Assembly (NCBI GenBank): GCA_028685185.1
Contig: JAQUEK010000007.1
Coordinates: forward strand, 1 to 32,812
DNA from: Candidatus Altimarinota bacterium
GTDB taxonomy: Bacteria > Patescibacteriota > Gracilibacteria > BD1-5 > UBA2023
Reading direction: 5' to 3'
Length of the DNA: 32,812 nucleotides
Shown: piece after piece, positions 11,854-27,339 of the stretch
Layout of the letters: each line of letters begins with the position of its first letter
Numbering within the stretch: the first letter of the stretch is position 1
Notes under the pieces: model-generated
Told to the model about the DNA's origin: nothing
Seen by the model: only the letters and a program-made list of their open reading frames with translations
Database searches by the model: none
Position numbers and translations under genes: made by a program

Positions 11854-13482
11854 TTATACTTTGAATTGTGAAACCAGCTCTGATAAGCTTCTGCTGGCAT
11901 CAGACATGGATATTGCGGAAGCATTGGTCTGATTTGCACCACTTGCTGCTTCCGAAATAACAGATGTTACAGACTGAATATTGGACGATATCTCATTTGT
12001 CGTTGCAGTCTGCTCCTCCGCAGCGGTTGCGATCTGATTCACCTGCTGATCCAGTTCAGAAACTTCGGCAAGGATCTGGTTCAAAACCTCTGTAACCTTA
12101 TTGAATTCCTGAGAACCTGAGTCGAACTTTGCAGATGTTTCCGTCATGTCTTTTACTGCAGTTTCAGTTTCCTTCTGTATGCCGCGGATCAATTCTGAGA
12201 TTTCTTTTGTCGCGGCTGATGTTCGGGCAGCAAGTGCTCTGACTTCATCAGCGACAACGGCGAAGCCTCTACCTTGTTCACCTGCACGGGCAGCCTCTAT
12301 GGCCGCATTAAGTGCAAGAAGATTGGTCTGATCGGCTATATCTTCAATTGTGCCGATTATCTGTCCGATCTGATCACTCCTTTCTCCAAGTCTCTTCACA
12401 TTATTCACAGAACCTCTGACCATTTCGGTCATCTGATTCATCATGGCAAGAGAATTCTCTGCACATCTAACACCAGAATTGGCAGCATCGCTTGACCTTT
12501 TCGAACCTTCAGCCGCCATATGACAGTTGGTTGCAATGTCATTGGAAGTCGCTGACATCTCTTCAACAGCAGTTGAAATGCTCATGGTCTGGCCCTGTGC
12601 CTGTTCTGTGCTGAATCTGATTGTCTCGGAAACCGATTCAAGGTTTTGCGCTATCTCAGATGCATCATCTGCATTTCTCTTTACCGATCTTATCATGTTC
12701 TGAAGCTTTGCATTAAAATCATTGAAATACTTTGCTATCTTGCCGATTTCATCATTTCTTGAATCGTCAAGCCTGGAAGTCAAATCACCTTCTCCTTCTG
12801 CTATATCCTTGATCATTTCAAGGAATTTCGCCAAAGGTCTTGTAATGCTCAATGAAATCCAAGCCGAAAGAAGCAAAATTATGATTCCGGTTATAAGACC
12901 AAAAATTATATTCTGCATAAAAACGACTTTTTTGAGCTTCAGGTAATTGTCATTTGCGGATTTTGCATCCTTTACAGCTCTCTCTTCAATGCTCCTTATG
13001 CTGCTTCTGATTCTGCTTACATTTGACTGCAACATCACGGAATTATCATTTACATCCTCATTTATGATGTTTTTCGGTATTTCCTTAAGTAAAGTCCTTA
13101 AGTCCCCATCCAGAATGGATACGAAATCATCAAAATTCTTCTTTGCATCAGCAAGTTTCTTCTTTTCTTCGGTATTCGAAAATTTCTCGACTTCAGAAAA
13201 AAGTTCTGTGCTTCTCTTTTTAATTTTGGGTATTTCCATATCGAGAGTTGCGAATGCCCTATCTGTTATAAAATTTGAAGCAACCATATTGAGCTGATCA
13301 CCGATGTGAGATGCTTCCTGAGCTACCTGTGCATTCTTCATTGTCTGATAGACGATGTGCTGATAATCCCCCAGTTTATTGTTCTGAAATAGATTGATGG
13401 CATTAAGTATGCTGCCGAAAATCACGATAACAGACGTCAGCAGGAAAAGCTTTTGTTTGATGGTGAAAGATATTTTTTTCAT
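11854..13482 (-). CDS. methyl-accepting chemotaxis protein
   Basis: 542 residues. TM1 lies at about 12-32, followed by a four-helix-bundle sensor of about 155 residues, TM2 at about 190-212, and a HAMP domain at about 212-264 ([23 protein letters not shown]). The long coiled coil has its hairpin tip near 387-405 ([18 protein letters not shown]). There is no C-terminal CheR-binding pentapeptide. Receptors of this kind signal through CheW/CheA to a motor, and none of these genes is in the window. About 25 glycines, all GGN, and zero UGA. Shine-Dalgarno AAAGGAG before the ATG. It ends in TAA. The start of the upstream small gene's transcript suggests co-transcription (27-base gap). Confidence 0.95.
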
Positions 13483-23010: not shown

Positions 23011-23757
23011 ATGAAAAGCACTAAAATACTATCTAAAATATGATTATCAGAAACTGAAAGCGCCATATATTTGGACCTACTTAAGAACTGAGCATCAAAT
23101 ATAGTCGAGATTTCAATGAGAGTGAAATTCAACAGGCCTTTGATTTATAAGACAATTCCTTATCTTATCGAAACAGGTCTTGTATCAAAGATCGTAAAAT
23201 GAAAGAGGAGTCATTATAAAGCTGAATCTCCAGAATATCTCAAGTGAATATTCGAAAGGCATTCCAATGATTTCCTGAATCTTATACCCGATCTCCAGGA
23301 AATATATGAGACCTGAGATAAGAATAGGCCGACAATAACAGTTCTTGAAGGCAAGAAATCGATAAAATTCGTTTTTGAGGATATAGTAACTACCTTAAAC
23401 AAATGAGATACATATTACAGATACAGTTCAAGATCCAATTTCTGAGACTTCCTTATGTTATGAAAATACAAAGAGATACGAGATAAGAAGCAAATCAACA
23501 GGCTTGTGATCACAAGCGAAAAAAGGGCTATATGAAGATCTAAGAAAATAGACAGGGATGTTGTTTTCATACCAAAATGATTCGAGCTTTTCGATCAGAA
23601 TGTTGCAAAGATGATATATGCCAACAAAGTTGCAATTATAGACTATAACACTTATACATCATTCATAATCGAGAATATGATACTTGCTAAATTCGAGGAA
23701 AAGATATTCAAGACCCTGTTCAAATTCCTTAAAAACATGGAAGAAGATTCCTTATAG
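23011..23757 (+). CDS. TrmB-family transcriptional regulator
   Basis: 248 residues. The winged helix-turn-helix at residues 7-75 (IGLSETESAIYLDLLKNGAS, then RPLIYKTIPYLIETGLVSK and GKRSHYKAESPEYL) is that of TrmB-like regulators. A central domain follows (TITVLEGKKSIKFVFEDI), similar to the TrmB/PLDc-like part, ending in a basic helix. TrmB proteins sense sugars or other small molecules; the ligand is unknown. No operator could be picked out. UGA glycines occur in the wing and at turns. Confidence 0.8.
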
Positions 23758-24369: not shown

Positions 24370-25608
24370 TTACCTGAGTTCATATCAAAGGTCATTCTGA
24401 AGTTTTTCCCTAATCTCAAAATACATTTTATTTATTTCATCATTGGTCAATGTCCTTTCTATCGACCTGAAAACCATTTTCAGCGATAGAGACTTGTTTT
24501 TTGGTGTAAATTTAGTATCGTTCTCATAGATATCGATAATCTTTACCTCTTCAATAAGATCTCATCATACATCCCTAATTATTCATGTTATTGCAAAAAA
24601 GTCTGACTCCGTATCTTTTGTCAGCTCCAATTCTCAAGATTTCTTTTCTTCTTCAATATCTTTTTTGAATTTCTCTTTAGGAACAACCATTGAAATATCC
24701 TTGTATACAGGGGGAAAAGAACTTACTTCCTTATATGTCTCTAGATTATCCCATTGTTTGGTTATCCTAGAATCATTGCTCCAGAATATCCTTATGTCAG
24801 GAATCTGCTTCAATGCCATTACAAGCCTTTCTATTCAAAATCAGAATGCCCATCAATTGTATTTTTCCGAATCCAATCATAATTTTTCAAGAACATCAGG
24901 ATGAACAACTCATGCTCAAGTCACTTCAAGCCATTTTCATTTGTACATGACCTCAATCTCAAGACTATCGGTCGTATATGGAAATGAATCCTCATTGAAC
25001 CTATATTCTATATCATCTCAGAACAATGCCTTTATAGTATTTCATAGAACTTCTTTGAGCGTATCCTGATTTATTATCTCCTTTTCCTTGGATGTAATCC
25101 TGAGTCAATCGATCTGATGGAAACATTCATGATGTGTCTTATCGAGCTCATCGACCCTATACACCTTTCACCAGCTTAAAGCCTTAACTTCTCAATCTTT
25201 CTCAAGTTTTTCTATTCATCCTCATTTTACAAGATAATGATACCACATTACAGAAGTATGAGGCCTTAATAATATGCTATTTTTCTTATCTTCATTTTTC
25301 TGCACGAAATAGCTGTCGCTAGGTCTTCTTGCTACGTGATTTTCAGGAAAATTAAAAAGGTCAAATGTTTCGAATTCAGCAACGATTTCAGGAACCTCTA
25401 TCTTGTCAAAAGATTCGTAAAAAGGTGAACCGATGATATTCTCTATAAGCATATTTATAGGATGTCCTTTTACCTTTGTCAGATTTTGCATGGCATGAAC
25501 CCTAAGTATCCTTGAAAAATAAGCCTTTTCTGTTTCATTGAGATCTTCATTTTCAATCTTATCCCTAACAAAATCCAGCCAAATCTTATCATTTTCCAAT
25601 AAATCCAT
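24370..25608 (-). CDS. single-chain phenylalanyl-tRNA synthetase (catalytic + FDX-ACB)
   Basis: 412 residues. Class II motif 2 is near residues 149-166 (VYRVDELDKTHHECFHQ), followed by FGDDIEYRFNEDSFPYT, the substrate region WLEVTGAGVVHPDVL, and motif 3 FGFGIERL near 255. From about residue 298 comes a ferredoxin-fold anticodon-binding domain: FPPVYKDISMVVP, IIRDVGGDLIEEVKIIDIY and KMVFRSIERTLTNDEIN. In ordinary bacteria this domain is at the end of PheT and the enzyme is an alpha2-beta2 tetramer. Catalytic plus FDX-ACB in about 410 residues is the layout of mitochondrial monomeric PheRS. No pheT is in the window. About 15 UGA glycines, including one in the TGAG active-site loop. Divergent from glyS. 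Confidence 0.88.
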
Positions 25609-25735: not shown

Positions 25736-25889
25736 AAGCGAAAAAGAGGGCCTGAAAAAAGGAATACTTGGAAAATATCCCTAAGGTCACCTCAAATAGC
25801 TAAAGTGTCTGGTGCCATAAGGCAGTAGAAACTTGGGTGGAACCGTCCGATATTGGACCCCAAGACTGGAATTGATTCAGTCTTTTTTT
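25736..25889 (+). promoter_or_regulatory. T-box riboswitch, glycyl type
   Basis: The antiterminator is complete: CTTGGG (25832-25837), T-box bulge TGGAACC (25838-25844), GTCC/GGAC inner helix, CCCAAG (25859-25864). The terminator AAGACTG / CAGTCTT with seven U after it (25862-25889) shares AAG with the antiterminator. The variable T-box base is A, which pairs with discriminator U73 as found in bacterial tRNA-Gly. Stem I is short (25746-25793, GAGG/CCTC base), and a hairpin at 25809-25828 may be stem III. A candidate specifier GGU (25785-25787) lies on the 3' side of stem I; this assignment is tentative. Uncharged tRNA-Gly should turn glyS on. Confidence 0.85.
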
Positions 25890-25944
25890 GTTTTTAATGA
25901 TCAATTCCCGTACTTTTCATTTTTATTTTTTAACCAACATTATT

Positions 25945-27339
25945 ATGTCAGTAGAAATGAAAGATATAGTTGATTTCGCAAAATTGCGAGGTTTTGTCTA
26001 CCAAGGTTCCGAAATTTACGGATGACTTGCAAACACTTGGGATTACGGTCCATATGGATCAATCCTTAAGGAAAATTTGAAAAACGCTTGGATAAAATCT
26101 TTTGTCCAGGAAAAGAATAATATGACCCTTCTTGATGCTGCAATATTCATGAACCCTCAAACTTGGGTTACATCTGGGCATGTATGAGGTTTTGCAGATC
26201 CATTGATGGACTGTAAGAGCTGTAAGCAAAGATTAAGGGCAGACAAGATAATCGAAGAATATGCTGAGAAATCAAACGATTCTGAAATGCCTAAAGATTG
26301 GGCATGAGAAAAGACTCCACCTGAAAATCTTACAGCATATATAAAGGATAAATGAATAAAATGTCCTTTCTGTTGAGGGGATGATTTCACTGAGATAAGA
26401 CAATTCGGTCTTATGTTCAAGACTCACCAATGAGTATTGGAGGATAATTCTGCTCTAATATATCTTAGGCCAGAAACAGCACAATGAATTTTCGTAAACT
26501 TCGCTAATGTACTTAGGACTTCGAGGAAAAAAGTTCCATTTGGTATCGCTCAAGTAGGTAAGGCTTTCAGAAATGAGATAACTCCAGGTAATTTTGTATT
26601 CAGGACAAGAGAATTCGAACAGATGGAAATAGAATTCTTCTGTGAACCTGGTTCGGATATCGAATGGCATGAAAAATGGAAAACTGATTGTATGAATTTC
26701 CTTACTGAAACAATCGGTCTAAATAAGGAAAACCTAAGATTCAGAGACCATGGTCCTGATGAATTGTCATTTTATTCAAACGCAACTTCAGACATCGAAT
26801 ATAAATTCCCTTTCTGATGGTGAGAATTATGGTGAATAGCTGATAGGACAGATTATGACCTTAAGGCTCATATGACTGAATCTAAAGCTGATCTGTCATA
26901 TTTTGATCCTGTAAACAATAAGAAATACATTCCATATGTAATTGAACCTTCCTTATGATTGAATAGATTGCTTCTTACTACCATCCTTAGTGCTTATGAT
27001 AAGGTAGTGACTGAAGAGTGAGAAAGGGTTGTATTGAGGATAAATCCAAAATTGGCTCCGGTAAAGATAGGTATATTGCCTATCGTTAAGAAGCTTTCAG
27101 ATGAAGCGATGAAAATATATGACAGCCTTTCAAAAAAATGGATGTGTGAATTCGACGAGACATGAGCTATCGGAAAAAGATATTATAGATTCGATGAAAT
27201 CGGTACTCCATATTGCCTTGTTGTTGATAATGATACGGTTGAAAATTGAACTGTAACTGTAAGAGACAGAGATACATGACTTCAAGATATAGTAAAGGTA
27301 ACTGAATTGGAAGAATATTTCAGAAATAAATTAGATTAA
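25945..27339 (+). CDS. glyQS: glycyl-tRNA synthetase, alpha2 type
   Basis: 464 residues, class IIa, homodimeric type (not alpha/beta GlyQ + GlyS). Seen: [12 protein letters not shown] at the N-terminus, a zinc-ribbon-like insertion with CKSC near residue 90 and CPFC near 140, motif 2 [20 protein letters not shown] near 208, motif 3 VIEPSLGLNRLLL near 331, and a C-terminal anticodon-binding domain from about 365 ([10 protein letters not shown]). The enzyme that supplies glycine for UGA itself needs UGA read as Gly at more than 20 positions, including the Gly of motif 3. ATG at 25945 gives the expected N-terminus; there is no Shine-Dalgarno. Controlled by the T-box upstream. Confidence 0.96.

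Follow-up and report, generated by a model that had tools for sequence, protein, structure and literature searches.

A probable accessory single-chain phenylalanyl-tRNA synthetase of Gracilibacteria and its relatives, the apparent sole PheRS of many Parcubacteria

To our knowledge, textbooks confine one-piece phenylalanyl-tRNA synthetase (PheRS) to mitochondria. The relevant passages of the structural literature present prokaryotic PheRS as heterotetrameric without known exception and restrict the monomer to mitochondria; the canonical bacterial enzyme is (alpha-beta)2 and carries an editing domain, while human mitochondrial PheRS (mtPheRS) is monomeric in solution and swings between closed and open states upon tRNA binding (PMC3275996). 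A 2024 classification lists PheRS-M, with FARS2 as its example (PMC11580382), and the passages on PheRS-M there and in a second source list it as a family with no bacterium named for it (PMC11580382, PMC10810186). In the passages of two further papers that concern PheRS, it serves only as a clustering example (PMC6744442) or as a case of domain translocation (PMC8409312). Within the open-access literature searched, we found neither a report of a bacterial single-chain PheRS nor a family name for the Parcubacteria enzymes described below. The remaining related system is SrmL, the “PheS-related mystery ligase” (NF051887), a protein with a PheS-like core and an FDX-ACB-like tail, accessory and plasmid-borne in the examples examined.

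The window, i.e., the whole stretch of DNA analysed here (32,812 nucleotides), is the complete contig C5 of a Candidatus Altimarinota genome (G000; 1,171,252 bases in 8 contigs, 100% complete). An earlier note on this DNA had placed a single-chain PheRS gene at 24370-25608. The coordinates are correct; the gene lies on the minus strand (25608..24370) and needs TGA to be read as glycine. Under translation table 11 its frame is broken by TGA, whereas under NCBI table 25 (TGA = glycine) it is open and encodes a protein of 412 amino acids (P0001), with 19 in-frame TGA codons and no other internal stops. Eight of the 19 fall at positions where Gly is invariant across 21 aligned single-chain proteins, some of them from standard-code genomes; among 24 Parcubacteria-type rows, seven of these eight are Gly in at least 23 and residue 168 is Gly in 22. 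TGA accounts for 19 of the 22 Gly codons of the gene, comparable to 44 of 53 in pheT of the same genome. Elsewhere in the window, a methyl-accepting chemotaxis-like gene of 542 amino acids (11854-13482, minus strand, recognised by eye) uses TGA for none of its 22 Gly codons and has a GC content of about 40%, against near 30% for the contig; it seems to have come in recently from an organism with the standard code.

The features of the PheRS gene, which we refer to as type A, are the following:

24370..25608, minus strand: single-chain PheRS gene, type A, stop included (table 25 translation; family, structure and homology results)
24751..25488, minus strand: class II PheRS catalytic core, residues 41-286 (PF01409 tRNA-synt_2d, E 3.6e-60)
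25108..25170, minus strand: motif 2 loop GKVYRVDELDKTHHECFHQID, residues 147-167, with Arg151 and Gln165 kept and Asp167 (alignment of 64 proteins)
24973..24984, minus strand: Phe-pocket motif FPYT, residues 209-212, FPF[T/V] in canonical and human enzymes (alignment)
24823..24855, minus strand: motif 3 GWAFGFGIERL, residues 252-262, with Arg261 and Trp253 (alignment)
24373..24723, minus strand: C-terminal FDX-ACB anticodon-binding domain (PF03147, own-genome search E 1.6e-17; ferredoxin-like secondary structure)
24589..24654, minus strand: insert of about 20-22 residues within FDX-ACB, type A only (about residues 319-340; alignment spacing)

The PheRS gene is flanked on one side by a GlyRS-like gene (25837-27339, recognised by eye) and on the other by a short ORF together with the gene of a TrmB-type regulator (23011-23757); inspection of these neighbours by eye revealed no aromatic-pathway gene. 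The sole Rfam match in the window at gathering scores is 5S rRNA, and no RNA leader was seen near the PheRS gene. The 5S rRNA gene is located at the contig end (32692-32806, minus strand).

The earlier reading of a PheS-type core followed directly by FDX-ACB agrees with the Pfam matches of P0001 (tRNA-synt_2d at residues 41-286, FDX-ACB at 332-412, E 1e-20; no other known domain), and the single-chain architecture cannot be a chance product. Length and domain order had also been likened to those of monomeric mitochondrial PheRS (FARS2, PheRS-M; structures 3cmq, 5mgv and 3tup; TIGR00469), which is one chain with a PheS-type core and a C-terminal FDX-ACB and is free of beta-subunit domains. Structure prediction bears this likeness out. 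In the AlphaFold2 model of P0001 (mean pLDDT 91.7, pTM 0.87), the last 110 residues form the ferredoxin-like C-terminal domain by which the proposal was to be checked, and the model superposes over the whole chain (residues 8..412) on human mtPheRS 3cmq (VIA-align 2; Z 34.7, 351 residues, 2.9 A). Canonical PheS chains align over about residues 47-290 only (Z about 22-26, 219-231 residues). Foldseek gave the same picture. The model of the Parcubacteria enzyme L049 likewise superposes on human mtPheRS (residues 13..380, Z 37.0, 2.7 A). In a PDB sequence search with P0001, human mtPheRS ranked first (E 1e-42), followed by bacterial PheS (2e-35).

None of the curated PheRS models claims P0001. It scores 199.2 bits with the mitochondrial equivalog pheS_mito (TIGR00469, cut-off 258.35) and 176.2 bits with canonical pheS (TIGR00468, cut-off 237.45), from which the presence of FDX-ACB also sets it apart; its best NCBIfam match by bits is SrmL (NF051887), again under the cut-off (233.2 against 300). 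Out of five other bacterial single-chain proteins scored whole, one (L063, of the Parcubacteria type, 272.8 bits) passes the TIGR00469 cut-off, so individual bacterial records may already be annotated as mitochondrial-type PheS. When catalytic cores alone were scored, two Parcubacteria-type enzymes preferred pheS_mito (172.8 and 184.7 bits) over pheS (159.0 and 177.2), while P0001 preferred pheS (177.4) over pheS_mito (147.6).

Residues were tabulated from an alignment of 64 proteins that includes 11 type A, 2 type B (a second single-chain form described below), 24 Parcubacteria-type and 22 canonical proteins and human mtPheRS. Type A keeps Arg151 of motif 2, Gln165, FPYT, G231/G233, GWAFG and Arg261 of motif 3, the last being present in every group tabulated. 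P0001 has the motif 2 Arg, HQ, FP[FY]T and motif 3 Arg of a PheRS, with two changes, Glu to Asp at position 167 and Phe to Tyr at position 211. Position 167 is Asp in all type A and type B proteins and in 19 of the 24 Parcubacteria-type ones (Gly in the other 5) and Glu in all 22 canonical PheS and in human mtPheRS; position 211 is Tyr in all type A and type B and in 20 of 24 Parcubacteria-type proteins and Phe in all 22 canonical PheS and the human enzyme. Judging from the alignment, position 167 presumably corresponds to human Glu159. In the passages of PMC3275996 that deal with it, this human Glu contacts m-Tyr and has a role in ligand binding. Two other positions are common to human and bacterial single-chain enzymes: position 253 is Trp in human and in 36/37 of the bacterial single-chain proteins, with Phe or Tyr in 21 of 22 canonical PheS and Trp in one, and a loop Arg of FDX-ACB occurs in 37/37 bacterial single-chain proteins, in 4/4 of the SrmL group and in human, whereas of 18 PheT proteins 13 have Gln and 2 have Arg there. 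The insert is visible in the spacing between positions 312 and 345, which are separated by 32 or 34 residues in 11/11 type A proteins and by 12 in the 24 Parcubacteria-type proteins, the 2 type B proteins and human. The changes at positions 167 and 211 and the insert distinguish P0001 from the mitochondrial enzyme and could alter amino-acid or tRNA specificity.

A further proposal of the earlier note was conditional: should the genome lack pheT, P0001 would be a bacterial monomeric PheRS, in keeping with genome reduction and of interest for the origin or convergent shrinkage of the mitochondrial enzyme; a pheT together with a second pheS was named as telling against it. Both are present. Searches of G000 with FDX-ACB and with P0001 itself retrieved three more relevant genes: a full pheT (C1:97349-99790; 813 aa, 517 bits to TIGR00472, cut-off 402.65), a canonical pheS on C6, not adjacent to pheT (342 aa, 298.8 bits to TIGR00468), and a second single-chain PheRS on C1, which we call type B (435 aa, 46-48% identity). 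P0001 is therefore not the only PheRS of its cell. Rfam and ARAGORN found 36 tRNAs in G000, of which one is a tRNA-Phe (GAA); an orthogonal second tRNA-Phe as the partner of P0001 is thereby ruled out. Since G000 has a full pheT, a normal pheS, a second single-chain copy and one tRNA-Phe, the window gene is an accessory PheRS and not a shrunken replacement; coexistence with a full heterotetramer is a further difference from the mitochondrial enzyme.

Type A is present in 15 of the 353 genomes of the class, and another single-chain copy occurs in three (the second copy of G000, G012 and G318, the last called a related single-chain gene by identity alone and kept outside the trees). A scan of named genome contigs yielded 37 loci. 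These include Gracilibacteria/SR1 type A genes (55-69% identity), one type B gene (L062) and genes of Parcubacteria (Yanofsky-, Zambryski-, Staskawicz-, Giovannoni-, Azam-, Wolfe-, Niyogi- and Vogelbacteria) and other Patescibacteria, which show 40-46% identity, use the standard code and encode about 375-400 aa when complete; two loci (L074, L075) are canonical PheS. Overall, P0001 shares 55-73% identity with its counterparts within Gracilibacteria and 40-48% with Parcubacteria-type and type B proteins. The Parcubacteria enzymes resemble P0001 in architecture and mostly in Asp167 and Tyr211 but do not have the type A insert.

The pheT model was searched against 37 genome handles, corresponding to 36 distinct genomes, 13 of them Gracilibacteria and 23 others. 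In Gracilibacteria, pheT exceeded the cut-off in 13/13 and canonical pheS was found in 11/13; the pheS model did not retrieve it from G061 and G012 (78-84% complete), both of which have pheT. Over 36 pairs formed by nine type-A genomes, type A identity was hardly correlated with that of PheS (r 0.12) or PheT (r 0.24), in contrast to PheS versus PheT (0.93), and mean pairwise identities were 65% for type A, 49% for PheS and 40% for PheT. This lack of correspondence with PheS and PheT makes it probable that type A, an extra and patchily distributed gene in Gracilibacteria, moves horizontally. None of 76 pattern matches was a viral contig encoding a relative, nor was a close phage or plasmid relative seen, the matches being canonical PheS or SrmL-like by name and aligned rows.

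A different picture was obtained for the 23 distinct genomes reached through Parcubacteria-type loci, none of which has pheT over the cut-off. In them, the pheT model picks up the FDX-ACB part of the single-chain gene (nothing in G088, where the contig ends inside that gene) and, in some, also a short separate ORF; the pheS model retrieves the single-chain gene plus matches of at most 27 bits, with no canonical pheS. Short stand-alone ORFs (frames of 108-163 aa) similar to the N-terminal tRNA-binding part of PheT were noticed in eight genomes, all without pheT (G070, G071, G074, G075, G076, G081, G084 and G092).

We also analysed an even sample of 212 Patescibacteria with completeness of at least 80%. 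In this sample, pheT was over the cut-off in 166 genomes, gave weak matches only in 20 (best E 3e-11 to 3e-32) and no match in 3. The single-chain profile was run on 80 of the 212, namely the 20, the 3 and 57 with better pheT matches; the other 132 also have better pheT matches. A single-chain gene was found in 19 of the 20 weak-pheT genomes (499-627 bits, two of them in two pieces), whereas none of the 57 pheT genomes exceeded 182 bits, the level of canonical PheS. The 19 genomes are 96-100% complete and spread over 10 family codes. Since some members of three of these codes (f25, f50 and f78) have pheT and no single-chain gene, the switch between PheRS systems looks recent or repeated. The exception among the 20 is G270 (L180, G270:C2:114000-118500), which shares its family code with a single-chain user and has a 257-aa PheS and a 396-aa PheT-like ORF, not full-size subunits; it is possibly a half-way reduced PheRS. 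Neither system was detected in 3 of the 212 (G095, G146 and G287). G287:C1, a single contig of 738,054 bases (94% complete), gave no pheT, single-chain or pheS match other than a 19.8-bit class II match, and either a piece is missing or the PheRS of this organism is a strange one. Thus, a single-chain PheRS appears to be the sole detectable PheRS of many Parcubacteria and other Patescibacteria, whose cells would then do without the PheT editing domain. The idea of a bacterial single-chain PheRS that stands alone, which fails for G000, appears to hold in these organisms as far as gene content goes.

We consider it likely that P0001 is a catalytically intact single-chain PheRS of the family that appears to serve many Parcubacteria as sole PheRS and that type A is a mobile extra isozyme beside PheS-PheT. 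The intact motifs, the retained FDX-ACB, the preserved fold and TGA use like that of resident genes suggest that type A is probably a working PheRS. According to this model, the class II core of P0001 would make Phe-AMP and pass Phe to the 3' end of the only tRNA-Phe (GAA) of the cell, with the C-terminal FDX-ACB holding the tRNA-Phe anticodon as in mitochondrial PheRS, and the reaction would involve neither the beta subunit nor its editing domain. Type A would be a diverged branch, marked by the FDX-ACB insert, that accompanies a complete PheS-PheT in Gracilibacteria as an extra mobile isozyme. We infer its activity, specificity for Phe, lack of editing, monomeric state and physiological role from these features. 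Candidate roles are an inhibitor-proof isozyme or, perhaps, Phe supply; a spare, perhaps inhibitor-proof, PheRS ranks first, and we tentatively favour one that charges tRNA-Phe while the heterotetramer is inhibited, e.g., by a peptide that the cell itself or a neighbour makes.

Gene neighbourhoods bear on this role. In three Gracilibacteria (G032, G064 and G066), type A is directly followed by a small gene for a precursor peptide of 37-51 aa (TGA = Gly) with the conserved end ..YYEAES[RW]QFSGCGD, then by a gene for a protein with an HExxH-like motif (by eye) and by radical-SAM genes. The RiPP-like clusters lie directly downstream of type A:

L046:9282-16218: RiPP-like cluster
L045:1233-8183: RiPP-like cluster
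L044:2248-4894: RiPP-like cluster, the contig stopping inside it

Pfam assigns four radical-SAM proteins to the L046 cluster, two of them radical-SAM/SPASM proteins and a third carrying a methyltransferase domain, together with an AstE/AspA-like hydrolase; homologues of these proteins occur in the L045 cluster. When the radical-SAM-methyltransferase served as the query, the cluster turned up in 3/13 type-A genomes and in none of 51 genomes without type A, weaker matches in G035 and G052 (62-65 bits) being counted as other radical-SAM genes. In G318 (G318:C19), the single-chain relative is part of a row of genes (L199:68-6693) whose other members encode a methyltransferase-like protein (by eye), a stand-alone AlaRS-like core, a peptidase of family S66 (that of LdcA and MccF) and an ATP-grasp protein; the row may represent a small island for biosynthesis or resistance.

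A more specific version of our preferred reading, possible though somewhat more doubtful than a spare enzyme in general, is that type A is a dedicated self-resistance or antibiotic-resistance PheRS, insensitive to a peptide or aminoacyl-nucleotide inhibitor of PheS-PheT and protecting producers as well as bystanders that keep only this gene. The three type A genes that directly precede the conserved precursor and radical-SAM cluster, the G318 relative next to an AlaRS-like core, S66 peptidase and ATP-grasp protein, the SrmL genes (distant relatives) carried by resistance plasmids in the vicinity of cmx, erm(X) and tet, and the patchy, horizontally mobile distribution of type A all argue for it. 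However, the cluster is absent from 10 of the 13 type-A genomes, including G000, its product and target are hypothetical, and one type A gene sits in an ordinary aromatic amino-acid operon. In that genome (G356), the order is aroB, aroA, a PhnA-domain gene, aroC, PheRS, chorismate mutase, prephenate dehydratase, prephenate dehydrogenase and aminotransferase, with type A flanked by chorismate synthase and by chorismate mutase/prephenate dehydratase. A DAHP synthase gene also adjoins type B in L062, and its relative (43% identity) is found near type A in L048. The link to Phe biosynthesis is not general, since prephenate dehydratase is not enriched with type A (7/15 genomes, against 29/50 with neither type).

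Could P0001 have ceased to be a tRNA synthetase and become, like SrmL, a PheS-derived ligase that uses a peptide, protein or small molecule as acceptor for Phe or a different amino acid? Its top NCBIfam match by bits and the biosynthetic clusters near such genes in some genomes point that way, yet we find this improbable. P0001 stays under the SrmL cut-off, while a true SrmL scores 524 bits; it retains the anticodon-binding FDX-ACB; and type A keeps FHQ, FPYT and LGAG (TGAG in P0001), whereas the SrmL group has the rebuilt active-site motifs GEPHQ, HPYT and LECG (motifs taken from a few aligned rows, not from a published definition) and forms a distant, separate branch (100/100). SrmL-like genes were noticed on plasmids (L076, L117 and L118) from Glutamicibacter (adjoining a chloramphenicol efflux gene), Azotobacter and Corynebacterium diphtheriae (between erm(X) and tet(65)). 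The protein of a huge phage (L077; LR745206.1, 634,780 bases) and a Patescibacteria protein (L108, G236:C51) fall in the SrmL branch and have GEPHQ-type motifs.

The trees contained 24 Parcubacteria-type rows and human as the one eukaryote and were built without an archaeal outgroup; fragments (L067-L070, L072, L073 and L118) and some further full-length rows were left out, and L180 of G270 was excluded from the concatenated and FDX-ACB-only trees and from the AU test. In the catalytic tree (237 columns), supports were 98/94 for the bacterial single-chain branch, 100/95 for canonical PheS and 100/100 for the SrmL group (two SrmL, one phage and one Patescibacteria protein); in the concatenated tree with FDX-ACB added (340 columns), they were 99/96, 99/98 and 100/100. 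In both, P0001 shares one branch with the Parcubacteria enzymes, apart from SrmL and from canonical PheS, whose system (TIGR00468, TIGR00472) has a homologous catalytic core and a homologous FDX-ACB but divides them between two genes. Human joined the bacterial single-chain enzymes with supports of 49/23 and 67/13 in the catalytic and concatenated trees, and the AU test did not reject human with PheS-PheT (p 0.53) or with the SrmL group (p 0.32). The FDX-ACB-only tree placed human within the Parcubacteria enzymes (98/85), in a tree of 103 columns with many long branches in which the Parcubacteria and type A groups were broken up. Trp253 and the FDX-ACB loop Arg favour common descent with human mtPheRS, whose placement the trees do not settle.

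That the bacterium recently acquired a mitochondrial FARS2-like gene from a eukaryote is very improbable: the closest solved structures are those of human mtPheRS, but the nearest sequences are bacterial (55-73% and 40-48%, against 32% to human in the structural alignment), and the bacterial single-chain branch excludes human in the catalytic and concatenated trees. Least credible of all is that P0001 replaced PheS-PheT in a reduced G000, a reading that suits its architecture and length and is true in outline for many Parcubacteria but meets complete pheS and pheT genes in G000 and pheT in every Gracilibacteria genome searched.

That a section of bacteria has a single-chain PheRS as its only detectable enzyme, and seems to do without the PheT editing domain, opens the origin of the mitochondrial enzyme to direct tests. 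It is conceivable, though on balance unlikely, that a fusion of a bacterial PheS core with FDX-ACB arose once and gave rise to the sole PheRS of a large part of Parcubacteria, to type A, to SrmL and to the mitochondrial enzyme; if so, mitochondrial PheRS would be an acquired bacterial fusion and not the outcome of domain loss within the organelle lineage. The finding also raises the question of how cells that have only the single-chain enzyme handle mischarging with Tyr and m-Tyr. The accessory type A genes beside an unstudied peptide cluster in three genomes hint at a possible PheRS-targeting product in Gracilibacteria, and the Parcubacteria enzymes represent a natural minimal PheRS.
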